Positions 30,297 through 32,934 of a DNA stretch of 64,000 nucleotides are shown piece after piece. Under the pieces are notes generated by a model. The model did no database searches, was not told where the DNA came from, and saw only the letters and a program-made list of their open reading frames with translations. A program made the translations under genes and the position numbers. The stretch is taken from NCBI GenBank assembly GCA_005880985.1, contig VBIQ01000007.1:248001-312000 (forward strand). Reading direction: 5' to 3'. The number at the start of each line of letters is the position of its first letter. Position 1 is the first letter of the stretch. The stretch is from Chloroflexota bacterium. GTDB taxonomy: Bacteria > Chloroflexota > Dormibacteria > Aeolococcales > Aeolococcaceae.

Positions 30297-30713
30297 CTAC
30301 GCCTTGGTCGCGCGGAACGCCTTGTCCACCTCGGCAACGGCGTCGAGAAGCTTCTGCCCGTCGGCCGGGTCATTGCTCTTCTTGGCCGCGCCGGCAGCCT
30401 TGGTCGCGGTCCAGAAGATCTCGTGCAGGTTGGGGACCTTCTGCTGGTGCTCGGGCTTGAAGTAATCGGTCCAGAGGACCCACAGGTGATGCTTGACCAG
30501 GTCGGCGCGCTCCTCCTTGATGAAGACCGCGCGTTCGCGGAAGGTCGGGTCGTCGCTGCCCTGGTACTTCTCCTGGCACGCCTTCACCGACTCGGCCTCG
30601 ATGCGCGCCTGCGCCGGGTCGTAGACGCCGCAGGGAAGGTCGCAGTGGGCGCGCACGACGGTCGGCGCCGAGATCCGATCGGCGAGGGCGAGCACGCAAC
30701 TGAGCATCCGCAT
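30297..30713 (-). CDS. sodN: Nickel-dependent superoxide dismutase precursor
   Basis: 22-aa leader followed by the Ni-hook HCDLPCGVYDPAQARIEAESVKACQEKY. Confidence 0.96.
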   Translation of the reverse strand: MRMLSCVLALADRISAPTVVRAHCDLPCGVYDPAQARIEAESVKACQEKYQGSDDPTFRERAVFIKEERADLVKHHLWVLWTDYFKPEHQQKVPNLHEIFWTATKAAGAAKKSNDPADGQKLLDAVAEVDKAFRATKA

Positions 30714-30776
30714 CGGCGCAATCCTCCTCCTGACCTGACTGCAATGCGATCAATGCTAGTCACCTACCGTGCAGCC

Positions 30777-31241
30777 ATGCCCCGGATCGGCCGCGTCCTG
30801 ACCGCCGCCGGCCTCGCTGCCGGCGCCGCGGCGGCGTGGCGGTGGCTGGGTCCCGACCGCGTGGCGGTCGACGGCGAGAGCATGAGCCCCGCGCTGCGCC
30901 CCGGTGACCGTCTGCTGCTCCTCCGCGGGCGGGTGCAGCGCGGCGACGTGGTCGCCTTCAGCCATCCCCGCCTGCCCGGGATCACAGCGGTCAAGCGCGT
31001 TGCCGGCCTCCCCGGCGACCGCGTCGAGAGCGGTGGCTGCTCACCGCTCGAGGCCGGCGACGGCTACCTCCTTCTCGGCGACAACCCGGCGGCCAGCACC
31101 GACAGCCGGCACTTCGGGGCGGTGCCGGCCGCCGCGCTGCGCGGCCGCGCCGTCTACCGCTACGCGCCACCCGCCCGCCGCGGCCGGCTTGGCGCCGACG
31201 GCGGGCTCAGTGCCCGGAGGCCGCGACGATGGGGGCGTTGA
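30777..31241 (+). CDS. sodX: Ni-SOD maturation protease (signal-peptidase-I-like)
   Basis: [20 protein letters not shown] (Ser), [14 protein letters not shown] (Lys), [18 protein letters not shown]; divergent from sodN. Confidence 0.9.
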
Positions 31242-32622
31242 GCCGCTGACCGCCGGTCGAGCCCTCGAAGGGGGCGTCGCCGAAGCTGAAGGTTCCGCCG
31301 TCGGAGGCGACCAGCCAGTAGCCGCTGCCAGCGGTGCGAGGGGCGATCCGGGTGATCGGCTGGTTGAGGCGCATGGCGCCGGTCGAGCCGAGGAAGGGGG
31401 CTCCGCCGAAGCTGAACACCCCGCCGTCGGCGGCGACCAGCCAGTAGCCGCTGCCGTCGGGGGCCGCGGCGGTGCCGACGATGGGGGCGTTGAGGCGCGC
31501 GGCGCCGGTGGAGCCCTGGAACGCGGCGGTGCCGTAGGTGAAGACGCCGCCGTCGGAGGCGACCAGCCAGTAGCCGCCGCCGTCCGGGGTGGCGGCGATG
31601 CCGACGATGGGAGCGTTGAGGTGCACGGCACCGGTCGAGCCGTGGAACGCCGCGTCGCCGAAGGCGAACACGCCGCCGTCGGCGGCGACCAGCCAGTAGC
31701 CGCCGCCGTCGGGGGTGGCGGCGATGCCGACGATGGGGGCGTTGAGGTGGTTGGCGCCGGTCGAGCCGTGGAACGCCGCGTTGCCGTAGGTGAACACGCC
31801 GCCGTCGGAGGCGACCAGCCAGTAGCCGCCACCGTCACCGGTGCGCGAGATGCCCACCACCGGTGCCTGCAGGCGGACGTTGCCGGCGCTTCCCAGGAAG
31901 GGCGCGTTGCCGAAGGCGAAGACTCCGCCGTCGCGGCCGGCCAGCCAGTAGCCGGCGGTGGGGGGCGCCGACGGGCTTGGCGCCGGTCCGCCGCTGCTTG
32001 CCGCATCGGGCGGCAGCTGGGCGAACTCCTCGGCGGTCACGATAACGTTGGACACCTGGCTCCCACCGCCCGACCAGCTGGCCGCGGTGGCGGATCCGAT
32101 GGCGACGTGGGTGTAGCTGGGATTGAGGATGTTGGCCCGGTGATCGGGGCTGTTCATGAACATCCGATGGAGCGTCGCCGCCGCCGCCGCCGGATCGCTC
32201 TCTCCGCTCAGCCAGCCGATGTTCTCGCCCGCCGACCGGAAGGGCACGCCGGCCGACTGCATGACGTTGAACACGTTCTGCCCGCCGCAACCGGGGATGA
32301 CATGCGAGAAGTAGTTGCGCTGCACCATGTCGACGGCCCGCCCGCTGATCGGGAAGCCGCAACCACCGTAGCCGCCGCTCTCGGCGATCGATCCGAGAGT
32401 GTCGTTCCACTGCAGCGGCGCCAGCCCGTTGGCGGCCCGGTCCTGGTTCAGCAACGCCACCAGGTCGGAGTCGAAGGTCGCATCGGCGCTGGCTGAGCGG
32501 CCGGGGTGCACCAGACCGGCTGCGGCGGCGAGCATCACCGCGCTCAGCACGCCGGCTGCGGTGCGACGGAGTCGACGGCGCGGGCGGACGGCGGATGGGA
32601 GGGTCGGACCGACGACGCGCAT
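31207..32622 (-). CDS. Secreted CAP-domain (SCP-like) protein with C-terminal 42-aa [12 protein letters not shown] repeats
   Basis: Signal peptide; [27 protein letters not shown]...[11 protein letters not shown]...[23 protein letters not shown] (CAP), then repeats [42 protein letters not shown]. Confidence 0.93.
31240..31990 (-). repeat. Six in-frame tandem repeats, exact 126-bp period
   Basis: CCGCCGTC core at 31295, 31421, 31547, 31673, 31799 and 31925, each 126 bp apart; encodes 42-aa repeat units. Confidence 0.9.
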
Positions 32623-32654
32623 GAGCTTCCTCGCGTCGGCCCACCGTTGCTGAC

Positions 32655-32735
32655 TCCTTCGGTAGCCCGGCCGTCTCCGGCGGAGACCCGTGACTTTGCG
32701 CCCCCTCCTCGCGGAGGGTTAGCCGTTGTCGGGAG
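32655..32735 (-). ncRNA. c-di-GMP-I (GEMM-type) riboswitch in the 5' UTR of the CAP-domain gene
   Basis: Minus strand GGCUAACCCUCC-GCGA-GGAGGGGGCGCAAAGUCACGGGUCUCCGCCGGAGACGGCCGGGCUACCGAAGG: hairpin capped by a GNRA loop, GCAAAG core, and GCCGGG-CUACCGA receptor arm, aligning with the GEMM-I consensus. Confidence 0.88.
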
Positions 32736-32934
32736 CCGACGCACTGAGCCTACCGGTGACGCCGGACCCCGGCACCACCCGCACCAAGGCGCTCGACGCG
32801 CGCGACGGCGGTGCGATTAATCGCCACCGCCCCGTGACCGCTCCCACCGCGAACGCGTGACTCGCGGCACGCGTCCTTGCCACCCCCGCTGCCCGGATCT
32901 CCACGGCCGCCGATGGAGATGCGACGATGAGGAG

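Follow-up and report, generated by a model that had tools for sequence, protein, structure and literature searches.

The sequence upstream of the gene for an exported CAP-domain protein in the 64 kb window (the whole stretch of 64,000 nucleotides analysed) carries an RNA that, on covariance-model evidence, belongs to the GGC subfamily of the c-di-GMP-I riboswitch class. Its pairing potential suggests that the first eight bases of the mRNA may be able to unlock a hairpin that would otherwise hide the start codon. On balance we favour, as the explanation of the whole arrangement, a c-di-GMP-sensing translational riboswitch that holds the CAP gene off when ligand is bound. The host belongs to the class Dormibacteria (AD3), a little-studied soil lineage, and the same three platform elements, here called U, D and S, are common to 20 loci of this lineage.

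Identification and anatomy of the aptamer

Searching the window against Rfam with cmscan returned RF03167 (c-di-GMP-I-GGC) as the single match above gathering across the whole 64 kb (64.9 bits, gathering cut-off 59, E 4.5e-13), with the model covered in full (positions 1-80 of 80). RF01051 (c-di-GMP-I / GEMM-I) passes too at the same aptamer, scoring 59.0 bits against a cut-off of 35. The preliminary description had named RF01051 and proposed an Rfam scan for it; the c-di-GMP-I identity stands, with covariance scores above the cut-offs, but the best-fitting family is RF03167. The hairpin CCCUCC-GCGA-GGAGGG with its GNRA loop, the junction GCGCAAAG and the segment GCCGGGCUACCGAAGG all lie where that description placed them, and GAGGAAG and the ATG at 32622 are likewise present in the sequence. 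All family features that could be mapped are found in the aptamer, which is why the RNA is classified, by sequence, in the c-di-GMP-I class, GGC subfamily. RF03167 had no match in any of 14 control genomes.

The end of the aptamer is separated from the ATG by 34 nt. The functional unit exceeds the interval originally noted, running from the -10 box at about 32752 to codon 6 at 32606. Its elements are listed in Table 1.

Table 1. Features of the riboswitch leader and its target gene in the window
Feature	Position	Strand	Basis or remark
-10-like box, TAGGCT	32747..32752	minus	first base 12 nt upstream of U
U, GUCGGCUC	32733..32740	minus	mRNA predicted to begin here; complementary to D
P1 5' strand, GGCUCCCG	32730..32737	minus	five bases in common with U; pairs in sequence
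c-di-GMP-I-GGC aptamer	32657..32733	minus	RF03167 and RF01051 scores, contact residues
GNRA loop of the CCCUCC-GCGA-GGAGGG hairpin	32712-32709	minus	
P1 3' strand, CG AA GGAGUC	32652..32661	minus	two bulged A
D, GGGCCGACG (U-complementary part GGGCCGAC)	32634..32642	minus	partner of U or of S
Shine-Dalgarno-like GAGGAAG	32626..32632	minus	inside the D-S hairpin (fold)
S, CGUCGGUCC	32606..32614	minus	within CAP-gene codons 3-6; almost a copy of U
Exported CAP-domain protein gene, 471 aa	31207..32622	minus	PF00188

The proposed U/D/S platform

A box starting 12-13 nt before U (the GUCGG motif) reads TAnnnT in 15 of the 20 loci and CAnnnT in the remaining five; in shuffled sequence, TAnnnT would be expected 0.014 times per locus. 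From this -10-like box at a fixed distance, the transcript is predicted to start at U, with +1 at 32740. In the window U and D can form 8 of 8 pairs, and the U bases 32737-32733 double as part of the P1 5' strand. The last base of D lies 12 nt upstream of the start codon, and D can pair with S over 9 bp, closing in the predicted fold a hairpin across the Shine-Dalgarno sequence and the AUG; S lies near or beyond the start codon across the sister loci. By eye, the window has no U-run of an intrinsic terminator in 32657-32622.

U, D and S quite probably constitute the switching platform, a candidate mechanism where the preliminary description had given neither a mechanism nor a direction of control. 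P1 and the U-D helix would compete for U, and U-D and D-S would compete for D. With c-di-GMP bound, P1 would be locked and U consumed, leaving D free for S; the D-S hairpin would then shut in the Shine-Dalgarno sequence and the AUG, and translation would be off. Without c-di-GMP, P1 would be weak and U would capture D once it is transcribed, before S exists; S would stay single-stranded, translation would be on, and export of the CAP protein would be favoured at low c-di-GMP.

Tests of the pairings and of the direction of control

The pairings were examined by partner permutation, comparing partners from the same leader with partners swapped among leaders (20000 permutations). The matched fit between U and the 3' strand of P1 was reached by 17/20000 permutations, and the matched D-S energy of -17.7 (permuted -15.0 +/- 0.55) by 0/20000. 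For U-D, 3/20000 permutations reach the matched fit, a figure flattered by D having been located by its fit to U; when the whole region is offered and D is not preselected, the count is 824/20000. The partner swaps lend support, at the sequence level, to all three pairings. The MAFFT alignment misplaces U in leaders of the L007 type, and for this reason pair counts were taken on anchored segments, alongside the permutations. Exposing the initiation region costs 16.2 kcal/mol when D is left free, and masking D lowers this to 12.4 (20 loci, Wilcoxon p 0.002; in the window, 16.6 and 10.5), the D-S fold and opening-cost rows of L001, L008 and L022 being less reliable because D was there assigned to the wrong CCG. 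As the tested loci are related, the figures of all these pairing tests are not independent observations.

That c-di-GMP turns the CAP gene off, rather than on, we infer with moderate confidence. In ligand-free equilibrium folding of the whole leader the probability of U-D is at most 0.16 at every locus, with mostly D-S formed, and in the window the minimum free energy is -81.4 (D-S plus a 5' hairpin GUCGG/CCGAC) as against -76.6 with U-D enforced. Given that this equilibrium favours D-S, the on state would be kinetic or helped by the ribosome, or else the sign is reversed. The 5' hairpin was considered as the core mechanism and rejected, L027 and L150 being on inspection unable to form it.

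The reversed sign, with c-di-GMP switching translation on through the same parts, is possible but rather unlikely. Ligand would then close the inner P1 only, and the adjacent U would pair with D, lengthening the closing stem and breaking D-S, the latter being the default without ligand, with the gene off. The unliganded ensemble, which defaults to D-S at most loci, is in keeping with such a design, as is the RF03167 model, in which P1 has only three pairs and most of U is left free; c-di-GMP riboswitches of both kinds, on and off, have moreover been described (PMC4744006). However, the outer part of P1, which it shares with U, is paired and covaries across the sister loci, as the low permutation count for this pairing indicates, and in L005 an A-U pair keeps the outer P1 at the price of a mismatch in U-D; both observations speak against the reversed sign.

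It is also conceivable, but improbable, that the aptamer is real while the CAP gene is not switched by U, D and S, the complementary motifs being a coincidence of GC-rich sequence or serving the promoter, and control being absent or transcriptional. The leaders are indeed very GC-rich, and against dinucleotide shuffles the U-D energy has z -3.6 in the window and mostly z -1 to -3 at other loci, which is modest for single loci; L005, L024 and L025 do no better than shuffles, and in L025 the aptamer is present and D is absent. Terminator-like hairpins also follow the aptamer in L016 and L017, of the same class, showing that other platforms exist. D-S is, however, specific to its locus in the permutations, and the U-D helix, with 92.3% of cells paired on the anchored segments, falls to 15-56% when slid by 1-3 columns; a slide of a single column is enough to bring it from 92% to 56% or 37%. 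That no U-run terminator was seen by eye downstream of the window's aptamer, up to the ATG, also speaks against this reading. The U-D covariation score, on the anchored segments, was reached by 1/500 shuffles, and in one pair both bases had changed; covariation is weak where D was not selected by its fit to U. Compensatory cases are GUCGGUC/GGACCG in L003 and L004, and UGGGC/GCCCA in L007 versus GGGGC/GCCCC in L030.

Ligand specificity

The ligand predicted from the sequence is, very probably, c-di-GMP. G20, A47 and C92, the c-di-GMP contacts of Vc2 (PMC4744006; PMC3764141), correspond to 32724, 32697 and 32662 (mapped by hand from the named residues), all canonical, and the host genome has 19 GGDEF matches, 18 of them above cut-off; c-di-GMP is taken as ligand on these two grounds. 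Of the interhelical C44-G83 pair, C44 could be placed, at 32700. Position 23 (32721) is U, against A, and position 43 (32701) is G, against A/G, a combination that recurs in a Gemmata locus (L067). GEMM-I variants with changed specificity are known, and rare (PMC7266159); the GGC subfamily bears a name distinct from that of RF01051, and U here replaces the usual A at position 23. Nevertheless, the three canonical contacts, the RF01051 score of 59.0 bits and the abundance of GGDEF enzymes make c-AMP-GMP or any other cyclic dinucleotide a highly improbable ligand. In c-AMP-GMP variants, position 20 differs.

The CAP gene and its neighbours

The downstream ORF matches PF00188 with 42.5 bits (cut-off 21.1, E 1.4e-10), bearing out the earlier placement of the riboswitch upstream of a secreted CAP-repeat protein. 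Its N-terminus is basic, followed by a hydrophobic stretch ending in SASADA, and was read by eye as a signal peptide. The protein shares the CAP domain with exported CAP/SCP proteins (PF00188; PDB 4ifa, a weak sequence match) and differs from them in adding about six C-terminal repeats of 42 residues that have no match in Pfam. The repeats also hit IMP dehydrogenase by sequence (PDB 8p4q, E 1e-4), which was taken as a glycine-rich chance match. Predicting the structure of the CAP-repeat protein from one sequence alone gave nothing informative (mean pLDDT 35).

The CAP gene is probably monocistronic, as the next minus-strand gene, for a nickel superoxide dismutase (PF09055), is at 30713 and a signal-peptidase-like ORF on the opposite strand lies in between. 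The superoxide dismutase is divergent from this ORF (region 30297-31241), in the usual sodN/sodX pairing. CAP homologues are present in 25 of the 32 genomes of the host family; among the loci inspected, the riboswitch precedes three CAP genes (the window, L005 and L006).

Distribution and sister loci

RF03167 matches occur in 16 of 110 genomes of the class, with six or seven each in G007-G009. The aptamer lies in the 5' leader of a c-di-GMP-type target gene (surface, motility or export), and its sisters precede genes for sortase-fold, TadE-like and CAP proteins. The sortase-fold target of L018 has a PF04203 match just under cut-off; further targets are TadE-like (PF07811), a sigma-70 region 4 protein and a response regulator (by eye). 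In a second sister group, which lacks U and D, the downstream genes encode glycosyl hydrolases and pectate-lyase-like proteins. The evidence leans slightly towards a U-D exchange platform that is lineage-wide in Dormibacteria and controls many surface-protein genes, with S near or inside the first codons.

The host genome has a second RF03167 copy (C3:40217-40291, 71.8 bits). The target of this copy (L001, 1607-2383), an exported sortase-fold protein rich in proline, retains VGHN and QTC, and the Arg of its relatives is seemingly absent from it (DRILDVV versus NLIVDAV); a sortase-like gene (ORF 1195-545) lies on the opposite strand.

The riboswitch loci L008 (G104, another family) and L022 (G007) are almost identical, suggesting contig misbinning in one of the assemblies. 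L133 (JAOAPE010000055.1), labelled Acidobacteriales, has a leader of Dormibacteria type, with AUCGGCUCC upstream and GGGGCCGA downstream, and is probably misbinned. In L016 and L017 (G078 and G073) the aptamer is followed by a terminator-like hairpin with a U-run and by Ig-like-repeat genes; their source genomes are possibly misbinned different organisms.

Relation to known systems and significance

The window aptamer shares with RF03167 (clan CL00126) the P1/P2/P3 architecture, the GNRA loop, the contact residues and a match over the full length, and differs in having U23 and G43; the U/D/S platform lies outside the family model. Vibrio Vc1 (RF01051, upstream of gbpA; PMC4744006) is alike in aptamer fold, ligand residues and a secreted-protein target; in the present system D could be captured by a 5'-terminal U, and S sits close to the first codons or within them. 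No description of a U/D/S-like platform was found for Vc1.

In the c-di-GMP-I loci L035, L147, L071, L078 and L125 of Rokubacteria and Nitrospirota, the 5' flank (for example GAAGACCCC) is complementary to a segment beyond the aptamer (GGGGUCUUC), although the sequence is unrelated to that of the window and the downstream partner sits in a different hairpin. Upstream-downstream complementarity has z -2.4 to -5.5 in these five loci together with L117 and L104 (Rokubacteria, Nitrospirota and others), and possibly represents the same switching principle in unrelated sequence.

Within the literature searched, there was no description of the U/D/S platform and no paper that joins "Dormibacterota" and "riboswitch". 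The platform is apparently lineage-specific and undescribed, its novelty being provisional given that most subscription papers lay outside the search. It offers a link, open to experimental test, from c-di-GMP to the cell-surface proteins of a soil class with hardly any cultured members, and a comparative case of one expression platform reused before unrelated genes, with the switch partly within coding sequence. If the proposed mechanism is true, a single lineage-wide design would govern many surface-protein genes.
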